This document shows positions 1 to 55,450 of a DNA stretch of 64,000 nucleotides, piece by piece. Numbering within the stretch: position 1 is the stretch's first letter; each line of letters begins with the position of its first letter. The notes beneath the pieces were generated by a model. It was not told where the DNA came from. It worked only from the letters and a program-made list of their open reading frames with translations, and did not search any database. A program made the translations under genes and the position numbers. This DNA is from Halococcus hamelinensis 100A6 (lineage in GTDB: Archaea; Halobacteriota; Halobacteria; Halobacteriales; Halococcaceae), in the NCBI RefSeq assembly GCF_000336675.1, contig NZ_AOMB01000009.1, positions 1,572-65,571 on the forward strand, in the 5' to 3' direction.

Positions 1-253
1 TTCAAAATCTCCGATTTTCGTCACTGAGCGGAGCGAAGCTCCGCGAGGTCCAAAAGAGTCGGAGACTCTTTTGACGATCACGAGAGAGCTTCGCTCTCTC
101 GAACGACCACGAGGCGAACGGCGACCGCGGACACTGTGCGAGGTCCGCGCGAGCAGCGCGAGCGCAGTCGGTTGGGGAGGCTCGTGGCCGTTGCGGGGCG
201 GTGCGGTGTCGAGTTTTGAAAGCGCGTACCGAAACGGAACAGCAGACGAAACC
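1..253. repeat. Intergenic mosaic repeat copy R1 with four triloop hairpins
   Basis: This gene-free stretch lies just downstream of trpS. It holds four perfect inverted repeats, each with a three-base spacer: arms 4-9/13-18 (spacer TCC), 28-34/38-44 (GAA), 51-60/64-73 (GGA) and 81-89/93-101 (TTC). The arms are unrelated to one another. The segment 160-180 is the reverse complement, with one difference, of a segment of copy R4 at 24940-24960. That shared tail places this stretch in the same dispersed family. No AT-rich core is visible here; it may lie left of the window. Confidence 0.75.
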
Positions 254-3094: not shown

Positions 3095-3358
3095 AGCGAC
3101 CTCCTGGCGGCTGCGGTTGCGGTGCGGCCGCCGCGGTGGTTGCGGTTGCGGCCGCGGTGGCGCGGCCGCGGTGGTTGTGGCGGTGCCGTGCGGAGCGGGT
3201 GCGGAGGACACGGCGTCCGCGCGAGTGGAACGAGCGCGGTTCACCGCGAGCGAGGCCGGCGGCCGAGCGAGCGGCCCTTTTTAGTCCAGGTTTTTGGAGG
3301 GGGTTCGACCGAGCGAACGCAGTGAGCGAGGGAGGACCTCCTCGAAAAAAGTGGTGGT
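3095..3358 (-). repeat. Intergenic mosaic repeat copy R2 (core A)
   Basis: This copy directly follows the stop codon of aIF1A. On the plus strand it carries core A, TTTTTAGTCCAGGTTTTT, at 3278-3295, then a variable segment, then GAAAAAAGTGG next to the gene end. Read in the direction of aIF1A transcription, the first thing met is a T-run, so it probably terminates that transcript. The part toward rio1 is a degenerate run of GCGGTTGCGGTG-like units. No perfect three-base-loop hairpin is visible in this copy. Confidence 0.75.
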
Positions 3359-21240: not shown

Positions 21241-21615
21241 GGGCGGCGGGTCGGTCGCGATGGCGGTGCGGTCGCCGGGCGGGCGCGGTGCGGTCCTTGC
21301 ATCTCGGCGAGCGCCGCAGGCGCGAGCCGAGAATGCGGTGCGGGGCGGTCTTCTGGTGTCTCGGCGAACGAACGTGAGCCGAGGCTCAGGAGAGCTGTGC
21401 TCTCCTGGCGGATGAAGGGCGAGTGAACGCCGGAGGCGTGAACGAGGGCTTCGGCGGAGGCGGTGCGGTGGCGGTGCTGTGCGGAGTCATTAGTGGCTGT
21501 ACCGCGAGTGAGGCGAAGCCGAACGAGCGGCCCTTTTTAGTCCAGGTTTTTGGGCGGGGGTTGAGCGCGAGAGCGCAGCGAGCGCGATTCCCCCGTCGAA
21601 AAAAGTGGGGGTGTG
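21241..21615 (-). repeat. Intergenic mosaic repeat copy R3 (core A)
   Basis: The element abuts the pcn stop codon. On the plus strand it carries core A at 21534-21551, a variable segment, and CGAAAAAAGTGGGGG next to pcn, so pcn transcription would meet a T-run first. Three-base-loop hairpins are 21311-21323 (spacer GCA), 21387-21407 (nine-base arms, spacer TGT) and 21427-21439 (spacer GGA). About 30 bases around 21357-21386 recur in copy R6. Confidence 0.8.
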
Positions 21616-24579: not shown

Positions 24580-25085
24580 CGGAACGTGGAGCCGTTCGGA
24601 GATGATTTTCTCGGTTCGATTCGGTATCGGAGCCGAGTCCCGACACAAACGAGAGACCGCCCCGCTACCGCACAGCACCGCCCCGCGACAGCCACGAGCC
24701 TCCCGCGCCCACTTTTTTCCGACTCGGGTTCGCCTTCGGCGAACCACTCTCTGCTCACGGGCGCGAAGCGCCCGTTCGCACGGCACGAGGGACCGAAGGT
24801 CCCTCGCTGCTCGCAAAAACCTGTTCTGTCGAGTGAAGCGAGACAGAGCTTGGAAGAGCGCGGCTCTTCCAGTGGACTAAAAAACCGCTCGCTCCCTTCG
24901 GTCGCTCACGGGACAGTCGCTAACCGCACCGGCCACACGCCTCCCCAGCCGACTGCGCTCCTCGCTCACTCGCCTTCGGCTCGTTCGCTTCGGTGCTCAT
25001 CCCTCGCACGGTGTCAACGCTCGGCGCTCACCGTCGTTCGCGCCGACCGCTACCGCGCGCCACGGTGGACGGTGAGGGAGCGCGA
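24580..25085 (+). repeat. Intergenic mosaic repeat copy R4 with core split by hairpins
   Basis: The element follows rlmE. In the rlmE direction it opens with CCCACTTTTTTCC and then three perfect hairpins with three-base spacers: 24727-24745 (TTC), 24757-24775 (GAA) and 24786-24806 (GAA). The core appears as AAAAACCTG (24815-24823) and TGGACTAAAAA (24873-24883). Forty-nine bases lie between them, holding a decayed hairpin (24825-24847) and a perfect nine-base-arm hairpin (24851-24871, spacer GCG). A tail similar to R1 and R8 starts near 24935. Confidence 0.8.
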
Positions 25086-30884: not shown

Positions 30885-31200
30885 ATCCCGGCGCGCGCCG
30901 CCGCCCCGGCGGTGCGGCCGCCGTGCGGTTGCGGTCGCGGTTCCTGGTGTCTCGGCGAACGAACGTGAGCCGAGGCTCGGGAGAGCAGTGCTCTCCTGGT
31001 GGATGAAGGGCGAAGGAGCGAGTGAAACGAGCGACTGAGGGCTTCGGCGGTGCGGTGCTGGTGCGGCTGGCGGTCGCGGAGGCGGGTTAGCGATCGTACC
31101 GCGAGTGAGGCTGGAGGCCGAACGAGCGGCGGTTTTTAGTTCAGGTTTTTGTGAGGAGTGGTGCGCGAAGCGCACCCGACGAGGAAAAAAAAAGTGGTTC
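30885..31200 (-). repeat. Intergenic mosaic repeat copy R6 (core A variant)
   Basis: The element abuts the phoU stop codon. The core at 31133-31150 is TTTTTAGTTCAGGTTTTT, one base different from other A cores. A perfect hairpin at 31160-31176 (spacer GAA) follows, then a run of nine A bases and GTGG next to phoU. A second hairpin is at 30980-30996 (spacer AGT). Roughly 30 bases before that hairpin recur in R3. Confidence 0.8.
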
Positions 31201-47851: not shown

Positions 47852-47955
47852 CGGGCACGGCGGGATTCGAACCCGCGACCGTCGGATGGCTTCCCGTGGC
47901 GCTGGCGCGACACGGATAGAAGTCCGACGCTCTATCCGGACTGAGCTACGTGCCC
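47852..47955 (-). tRNA. tRNA-Arg (UCU) with a 29-nt intron
   Basis: Acceptor arms GGGCACG/CGTGCCC, D-arm GCTC...GAGC, anticodon stem TCGGA/TCCGA and T-arm GCGGG-TTCGAAT-CCCGC all pair. The anticodon loop reads CTTCTA plus A after removal of bases 47888-47916. That removal lies between positions 37 and 38, the standard archaeal intron site, and gives anticodon UCU (Arg). The intron contains CCGTG...CACGG, able to form the bulge-helix-bulge substrate of the splicing endonuclease. Mature length is 75 nt without CCA. Confidence 0.95.
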
Positions 47956-53050: not shown

Positions 53051-54457
53051 TCAGCCGAACGGGCCGCCACCGCCGCCCATGCCACCCATCCCGCCCATGC
53101 CGCCACCGCCGCCGTCGCCTTGCTCCATTCGCTTCATCATCCGCTGCATGTCGGCGTCGCCCATCCCCTGGAACTGCTTCAGGGTGCGTTCCATCATCCG
53201 GTGTTGTTCGAGGAGCTCCCGAACGCGTTCCTCGGGCTGGCCGCTCCCGCGGGCGATCCGGCGGGTCTGGCTCGCGCCCACCGAACGGGGGTTCTCGAGT
53301 TCGGAGTCCGTCATCGAGTCCATCACGATGTCGAAACTCCGCATTCGGTCCTGGGTGACGTCCATCGCGTCGTCGGGGAGCTGGTCCTTCAGCCCGCCGC
53401 CGAGTCCGGGGATCATATCGAGGACCTGATCGAGGGGCCCCATCTTGTTCATCGCGTCCATCTGGTGGCGCATGTCCTTCAGGGTGAACTGGCCCTGGAG
53501 GATCTCCTCGGGGTCCCAGTCCTCCTCGTCGTCGGTGGTCTCCATCGCGCGCTCGACCCGCTCGGCGAGCTGCTTGAGGTCGCCCATCCCCAGGAGTCGG
53601 GAGATGAAGCCGTTGGGCTCGAAGCGCTCGACGTCCTGCACCGTCTCGCCGGTCCCGAGGAACGCGATCGAGGAGTCGGTCTCGTTGACGGCGGTGAGCG
53701 CCCCGCCACCCTTCGCGGTCCCGTCGAGCTTGGTAATCACGACGCCGTCGATCCCGATAGCATCCTCGAAGCGCCGGGCCTGGTCCTTCGCCCCCTGGCC
53801 GATCGCGGCGTCCATCACCAGCAAACTCCGATCGGGTTGGACGACGTCGTCGATCGCGCGGATCTCGTCGATGAGGTCGTCTTCGAGCGCGTGCCGCCCC
53901 GCGGTGTCGACGATCTTGACCTCGGCCTCGTCGGCCGCTTCGAGCCCCTCGCGAGCGATCTCGACCGGGTCGTCGCTGTCGGGGTCACCATAAAAAGTGA
54001 CCTCCGCGCGTTCGGCCATCTGCTTCGACTGGTCGTACGCGCCGGGGCGGAAGGTGTCGGTCTGGATGACGGCGGGCCGGAGACCCTTCTTCGAGAACCA
54101 CCACGCCATCTTCGCGGCGGTGGTGGTCTTCCCCGAGCCCTGGAGGCCAGCGAGCAGGATGGTCTGAGATTCGAGCGGGAGGTCCGTGCTCTCCCCGACG
54201 AGGTCGACCATCTCCTCGTAGACGATCCGGAGGACGAAGTCCCGCGCCGTCGTGCCGCCGGGCGGCTCCTCGTTGAGCGCGCGGTCCTCGATCCGGTCCG
54301 AGAGGTCCATCACGAGGCTGATCTCGACGTCGGCTTGGATCAGCGAACGCTGGATCTCCCGGACGACCTCCTCGACGTCGTCGGCGTCGAGGCGGGTCTT
54401 GCCCTGGAGTCTGTTGAGGGTTCCCCGGAGGGAACTCCCGAGGTCGTCGAGTACCAT
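53051..54457 (-). CDS. srp54: Signal recognition particle 54 kDa protein
   Basis: The 468-residue GTPase has the N domain at about 1-85, then the G domain with [15 protein letters not shown], the [10 protein letters not shown] box, [16 protein letters not shown] and [13 protein letters not shown]. The Met-rich M domain from about residue 300 ends in a Gly/Met tail ([17 protein letters not shown]). It binds 7S RNA and signal sequences at the ribosome. The receptor gene ftsY lies 2.3 kb upstream on the same strand. Confidence 0.97.
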
Positions 54458-54470
54458 TTGCCACCACTAC

Positions 54471-54871
54471 GCCGTGTGGTTCCTAAAGCCCTTCTGGACA
54501 CCCACTTTTTTACTTCGTCGGGTTCGCCGGAGGCGAACCACTCCTCGCAAAAACCTGGACTAAAAACTGCCGCTCACTCGCGCTCCGCGCTCGTTCGCGG
54601 TACAATCACTAACGCTCCCGCTACCGCCCCGCACCGCCCACACGCCTCCCCAACCGATTCGTTCGTGGTTCGAAAATCGCGTGGCGATTTTCGTCATCAC
54701 GAAAGGCGCTTCGCGCCTTTCGAACGACTCCCTCCGGTCGCTCACTCATCCCTCGCACAGTGTTCGCGGCCGCGGGTTCACGTCCACTCACGGGTCACTT
54801 CGTTCCCCGTTCGCATCGAGGCGCTTCGCTCCTCGCGTCGCTCACCCACGACCGCGAGCGCGCGCCAACAG
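54471..54871 (+). repeat. Intergenic mosaic repeat copy R8 (core A), orphan orientation
   Basis: The T-run CACTTTTTTAC is near 54504-54513, a hairpin at 54521-54539 (spacer GGA) follows, and core A as AAAAACCTGGACTAAAAA is at 54549-54566. Two perfect ten-base-arm hairpins lie at 54671-54693 (spacer GTG) and 54700-54722 (spacer TTC). The head faces the 5' end of srp54 instead of a gene's 3' end, unlike the other copies. The tail borders the isochorismatase-type gene stop. Confidence 0.8.
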
Positions 54872-55450
54872 CTACAGCAATGCGTCGGTTTCCACGATCG
54901 TCGCGAATTCGCCGTCGAGATGGGCGAGCGCGAGGCGATGGCTCTGCTCGGCATCGTAGCTCTCGCCGTCGTAGCCCACCCGCTCGTGAGTCGCGGTCGC
55001 GTCGGCGACCACGAACACCCGAAAGTCGAGGTTCTCGGCCATCCTGGCGGTGGTCGAGACACAGTGGTCGGTGGTCAGCCCCACGACCACGAGCGTCTCG
55101 TGGCCCGCCTCGCGGAGTCGCGCTTCGAGGTCGGTCCCGACGAACGCGCTGTTGACCGATTTCTCGACGACTGGCTCGCCGCTCTCGGGTTCGGCGACGG
55201 GTTTGAACGCGTTGCCCGGCCTGTCCGGTCGGAGCGGCGAGTCGGGTTCGGTCGAGCAGTGCCGGACGTGGATCACGGGCCGCTCGGCCGCGCGCCACGC
55301 GTCGAGGAGACCGCCGATGCGCTCTTCGCAGTCGGGGTTGTTCCGCTCGCCCCATCCGGGTTCGTCGAATCCCTGCTGGACGTCCACCAAGAGGAGAACG
55401 GCGTCGTCCGGCACCACATCGCCCTCACCCGTTTCGGCGACCGAACTCAT
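54872..55450 (-). CDS. Isochorismatase family hydrolase
   Basis: The start at 55450 ([11 protein letters not shown]) gives 192 residues. The catalytic aspartate is in [15 protein letters not shown], the lysine in [16 protein letters not shown] and the cysteine in [18 protein letters not shown]. It belongs to the cysteine-hydrolase superfamily including nicotinamidases. The substrate cannot be fixed. Its ATG overlaps the stop of the upstream YqcI/YcgG-type gene by four bases, so the two are coupled. Confidence 0.93.

Follow-up and report, generated by a model that had tools for sequence, protein, structure and literature searches.

Three-base-loop hairpins as slots of two intergenic repeat families in Halococcus, and their possible origin as mobile DNA elements

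Hairpins and repeats of the window

The window analysed here, a stretch of 64,000 nucleotides from Halococcus hamelinensis 100A6, holds several copies of a repeat, called the Halococcus scaffold below, that adjoin the genes for PCNA, PhoU, FtsJ and SRP54, among others. In the gap 54458-54871, the scaffold core TTTTTAGTCCAGGTTTTT was located at 54549..54566 on the minus strand (0 expected in shuffles), and the right end, CACTTTTTT...AAAAACCTG around the hairpin 54521-54539, at 54503..54557 on the plus strand, i.e., opposite to the core (G000:C9:56074-56128). The same gap contains DH1, a 62-bp double-hairpin cassette (54666..54727, minus strand) in the order TCGTTCGA, hairpin 1, TCGTGATGACGA, hairpin 2, TCGAACCA, which was recognised by a covariance model (R1; 72.3 bits, E 7e-19) and by an exact pattern. 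The stretch 54671-54722, singled out in the first-pass annotation, is one copy of this cassette. On the minus strand, hairpin 1 (54700..54722; arms of 10 bp, loop GAA) is followed by the linker TGATGA (54694..54699), invariant in 38/38 aligned copies, and then by hairpin 2 (54671..54693; arms of 10 bp, loop CAC, which reads GTG on the plus strand). A degenerate DH1-like match (R1, 39.7 bits) lies at 46..106 on the plus strand, within a nested composite that also contains the hairpins 4-18 and 28-44. Just left of the window, at about base 1571 of the contig (L363, G000:C9:1-1700), an N of the assembly's scaffolding, with a duplicated stretch of about 80 bases, was seen within a nested hairpin cassette and is likely an assembly join.

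Inserts were also seen in the scaffold elsewhere in the window. On the minus strand, a 50-bp hairpin cassette sits within the core (TTTTTTAGTCC / insert / CAGGTTTTT; 24824..24873), contains the hairpin 24851-24871 and has a relative at L213, and a second double-hairpin insert (24751..24809; hairpins 24757-24775 and 24786-24806) lies between scaffold GCGAG and GAGTGG, matches the DH1 model R1 weakly (E 0.003) and has relatives in L290 and L241. A right-hand scaffold hairpin, GGTTCGCC-GAA-GGCGAACC on the core strand, lies at 24727..24745 (minus). On the plus strand, a core with one changed base (TTTTTAGTTCAGGTTTTT; 31133..31150) is accompanied by the right-hand hairpin GGTGCGC-GAA-GCGCACC (31160..31176), and a further core (21534..21551) by the hairpin of a left-hand DH2-type module (GAGGCTCAGGAGAGC...CTCCTGG; 21387..21407) and by the hairpin of a module framed by GGATGAAGGGCGA and GAGGGCTTCGGCGG (21427..21439). 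An extra element copy, with its core at 3278..3295 (plus), was absent from the earlier list. Among Rfam families, only tRNA was matched in the window, and the best score within 54450-54900 was 17.8 bits against a cut-off of 58 bits. The tRNA match at 47852-47955 (minus strand) is 104 bases long, longer than a plain tRNA, was missed by ARAGORN and probably contains an intron.

The first-pass annotation had listed 16 perfect inverted repeats and proposed that their spacer is always exactly three bases. All 16 are perfect, and 15 of them have this spacer; in the repeat 30980-30996, the ends of the spacer AGT pair with each other, so that the true spacer is 1. With arms of at least 8 bp, spacer-3 repeats number 18 in the whole window versus 2.6 in shuffles. 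Spacers of 0-12 bases were then scanned, with a shuffled control, in the window and a further 400 kb of this genome (464 kb, with 273 intergenic stretches totalling 88.6 kb), and spacer 3 stood out, in intergenic DNA only. There, 27 repeats with arms of at least 8 bp were found at spacer 3, against 1.9 in dinucleotide shuffles, and 1-5 at each other spacer from 0 to 12; hence spacers of 0-8 bases are not equally common in these regions. With arms of at least 7 bp, the count at spacer 3 was 37 versus 6.5 in shuffles, with a slight excess also at spacer 4 (16 versus 6.5). Coding DNA showed no such peak, with 22 repeats at spacer 3 and 15-35 at other spacers.

The hairpins occupy slots of two repeat families, the Halococcus scaffold and DH1. 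The scaffold lies near gene ends, and its linkers are invariant while its hairpins are exchangeable: the slots hold different arms in every copy, and at one slot 59/64 were paired versus 37 after shuffling. Its core, TTTTTAGTYCAGGTTTTT, has 27 copies in this genome (34 with a looser pattern; 0 for the reversed-sequence control). It was found in 10/10 Halococcus genomes including this one, with 6-28 copies, the lowest count coming from an incomplete genome, and at lower copy number in two further genera of the family; Halomarina, Halorientalis and Halocatena are among the named genomes that match the core. A GC cut-off of 0.55 removed the hits in low-GC bacteria, which were taken for chance. 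At one scaffold end pattern (G000:C41:57046-57105), the interior hairpin is oriented opposite to the ends, as if inverted. The element end adjoins GGGTTCAAATCCC, similar to the 3′ part of a tRNA, at L101, L154 and L251. A run of about 15 G and then one of about 14 C, which may be real or a sequencing artefact, makes up the right-hand hairpin of L251 (G004:C1:2086600-2092900), where its orthologue L280 has an ordinary hairpin.

The loop rule and tandem GA pairs

The three-base spacer is the expression of a triloop rule of the C(GNA)G type, under which most loops read GNA on one of the strands. The pair that closes the loop was C...G in 16/16 of the listed repeats, and 12 of the 16 loops were GNA or its complement TNC. 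For arms of at least 7 bp, the closing pair was C-G 31 times and G-C once in intergenic DNA, versus 31 and 27 times in coding DNA. The stems are often framed by tandem Py-GA-Pu: among 499 two-by-two internal loops between stems in 109 scaffold core copies, 294 were GA/GA, with Py-GA-Pu in 248 of these and a GNA loop in 261 of the 294 hairpins concerned. Tandem-GA hairpins were found 283 times on the core strand versus 10 times on the other, a preference that the perfect long-armed hairpins do not share. This bias fits RNA as well as single-stranded DNA, and hairpins of the C(GNA)G/tandem-GA type may plausibly form in RNA too.

Distribution, covariation and junctions of DH1

DH1 is 60-62 bp long, its ends and TGATGA linker are invariant, and its arms covary. 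In one analysis, 99.6% of the cells were paired, with 41 double-changed versus 9.9 after shuffling and 5 one-sided changes; in another, 99.7% were paired, with 41 versus 14.7 double-changed and 0 one-sided. Among 755 pairs of the arms, there were 10 G-U and 16 other non-Watson-Crick pairs, which gives no clear sign of G-U tolerance. Eight arms occurred in both hairpin positions. The cassette was present in 10/10 Halococcus genomes and in 110/196 Halobacteriales genomes, with up to 27 copies in each (reversed-pattern control, 0), and none was found outside this order in a phylum sample of 148 genomes, 24 of them from Halobacteriales and about 124 from other orders. In this genome, the covariance model gave 63 matches at E <= 0.01, counted on both strands and thus representing roughly half as many places. 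DH1 was also found in 22 plasmid records, all haloarchaeal where named, in which the best match did not fall on an annotated gene, and the phage records searched gave no match. Searches of an open-access library for palindromes or MITEs of haloarchaea, and for the sequences themselves, turned up nothing relevant.

Of 73 DH1 copies, 66 meet their surroundings at a G|C junction and 5 at G|T. No duplication of target bases, as in a MITE with target-site duplication, was detected at the 73 junctions or in one empty/filled pair. In 16/63 cases the junction coincided with the first base 3′ of a triloop (stem of at least 3), compared to 4.4% of the GC sites in the vicinity (p about 6e-8 when the two positions tested are combined), the control being GC steps within 300 bp of cassettes only. 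A second target class inside the TNC loop (TG|C) was suggestive by eye, and was not enriched when scored (1/63 versus 1.4%). A triloop tip could be recognised at only about one quarter of the junctions, so that G|C may be what chiefly matters.

In the one pair examined for this purpose, L252/L281, the orthologous DH1 site is empty in one genome and filled in the other, with flanks identical at 65/70 and 94/96 bases and a loop that differs between the alleles (GAA versus TTC). L249 and L274 differ by a 50-bp insertion of another double hairpin. In alignments of orthologous elements, the scaffold and the flanks were kept, and the hairpins were replaced wholesale. In addition, the 62 flank pairs collected over five genomes included cases where X|Y and Z|W in one genome appear as X|W and Z|Y in others, the pattern that an exchange at the element should leave. 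At L002 and L021 (G000), L247 (G004) and L285 (G001), the flanks of two elements have swapped partners from one species to another, as if recombination had taken place at the element.

These results support the explanations offered in the first-pass annotation in part. Its view that the hairpins are selected or generated by shape was supported by the covariation of the arms, the chemical rule obeyed by the loops and the preference of DH1 for hairpin tips. Copying of arms by independent slippage at each site, by contrast, is unsupported as an origin, because the hairpins are slots in two families whose linkers do not vary, because arms are met repeatedly within lineages, and because whole cassettes differ between orthologous sites.

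Origin of the elements and comparison with known systems

The strongest competing idea is that the scaffold acts at the RNA or transcription level, as a structured bidirectional terminator or insulator whose T-tracts end transcripts from both sides and whose one-strand GNA/tandem-GA hairpins pause the polymerase or protect 3′ ends. The core contains two T5 tracts, and T-stretches terminate transcription in Haloferax volcanii (PMC7237163). The motif density peaks in convergent gaps. When the right-hand gene is convergent, its stop is usually 46-70 nt from the core and about 8 nt from CACTTTTTT, and CACTTTTT, about 8 nt after a gene stop, was seen only at elements. When folded as RNA, the core strand was the more stable one in each of 109 copies (means of -64.9 versus -48.6 kcal/mol), which would fit the earlier suggestion of hairpins needed after transcription; that strand, however, is not consistently the sense strand of the neighbouring gene. 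By orientation counts that are approximate, as genes were called here by codon usage, the left neighbour is on the plus or minus strand about equally, around one fifth of the copies lie between divergent genes, and tandem gaps show no sense-strand bias of the motif (10 versus 17). A simple mRNA 3′-UTR reading was rejected on the same grounds, i.e., the tandem gaps and the neighbours on both strands. The DH1 arms, moreover, show no clear G-U tolerance, and such a role leaves the G|C insertions unexplained; it is judged unlikely, if far from negligible, as the explanation of the hairpins.

Less can be said for an origin with no mobility, in which template switching during quasi-palindrome correction makes perfect short hairpins that gene conversion spreads between dispersed copies. 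This would produce paired changes with few one-sided ones, wholesale replacement at orthologous sites and shared flanks in exchanged combinations, all of which were observed. Yet the order-wide invariance of the DH1 ends and linker, the uniform G|C junction and the empty/filled pair need the transfer of a defined unit, and the tandem GA/GA mismatches persist uncorrected, making this origin improbable. Movement as REP/BIME elements in trans by a Y1 HUH transposase (RAYT or IS200/IS605 TnpA), for which the inverted arrangement of two hairpins with GTCG/GTGG-like feet and the absence of target duplication would speak, is about as improbable and was rejected for want of association. Among 196 genomes, the presence of Y1 (searched as PF01797) was unrelated to that of DH1 (Spearman 0.11, Fisher p 0.24). 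No Y1 match was obtained in 11 genomes that have 5-27 copies of DH1, although some of these are incomplete, and the motifs tested are all absent from the surroundings of the sole Y1 gene in the genome studied here.

The reading with a somewhat better than even claim is that the hairpins are slots in nested, non-autonomous, BIME/DHE-like DNA elements that form hairpins and spread through the intergenic regions of haloarchaea. The moving form would be a single strand folded into mini-hairpins, which a structure-guided nuclease or recombinase, as yet hypothetical, might insert next to a G-C step in the tip of a hairpin. When copies recombine with one another, hairpins would be swapped and neighbours rearranged, so that shape and linkers persist while the arms turn over. 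A hairpin-recognising nuclease, as proposed in the first-pass annotation, fits this picture, although the Y1 (IS200/IS605-type) transposase does not track DH1 and no mobilising enzyme was found. More tentatively, and with doubt outweighing belief, DH1 itself can be seen as a mobile element that inherits its identity through fold and linkers and not through its arms, with a single strand held by C(GNA)G triloops being placed at a G-C step in another hairpin's tip by a structure-guided enzyme, leading to nesting across Halobacteriales. Against the mobile-element reading, the tight distance of the scaffold to gene ends looks functional and not merely selfish, and the scaffold around DH1 may have been retained as a terminator or insulator. 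In our best reading, mobile elements account for the linkers, the junctions and the presence/absence differences, and the scaffold's strand bias and its place at gene ends would also allow it to act as RNA or as a terminator, which is compatible with mobility. If true, haloarchaea would harbour an order-wide class of very small structured elements that target hairpins, apparently undescribed in that searches of an open-access library found no account of it; the class would offer a tractable route to an archaeal enzyme guided by DNA shape, and explain part of the hairpin-rich intergenic DNA and of the rearrangement breakpoints in Halococcus.

Several known systems resemble these elements in part. 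REP/BIME elements are short intergenic palindromes of high copy number, with paired inverted hairpins, conserved feet and no coding content, and DH1 likewise has its hairpins in pairs with conserved feet and is scattered over the gaps between genes. It differs in having no link to a Y1 transposase, in its G|C junction and nesting in hairpin tips, and in its stems, which in REP/BIME are conserved in sequence within a family and in DH1 vary widely with compensation. Integron attC sites are used as one folded strand with a shape more conserved than their sequence, a likeness to DH1 that is offered as an analogy only. The mitochondrial double-hairpin elements (DHE) and repetitive hairpin-forming elements (RHE; PMC2800124) share the intergenic single and double hairpins, the patchy distribution, the link to rearrangement and the unidentified enzyme, and here, too, double hairpins are scattered in intergenic DNA and differ between relatives at the same site; in sponge RHE, however, stems are conserved and loops variable (PMC2800124), whereas here the loops and linkers are constrained and the arms vary. 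The T-stretch terminators of Haloferax volcanii (PMC7237163) also have T-tracts beside hairpins at gene ends, but in Halococcus both belong, as constant components, to a repeat family whose copies occur between divergent genes as well. Finally, mini-hairpins of the d(GCGAAGC) type are exceptionally stable in DNA, and melting temperatures near 76-88 °C are given for hairpins of the d(CGCGAAGCG) type (PMC10527192). The trait in common with the former is the C(GNA)G triloop on two or three G-C pairs, which is the inner unit here; what was in vitro chemistry there recurs here in a dispersed genomic element.
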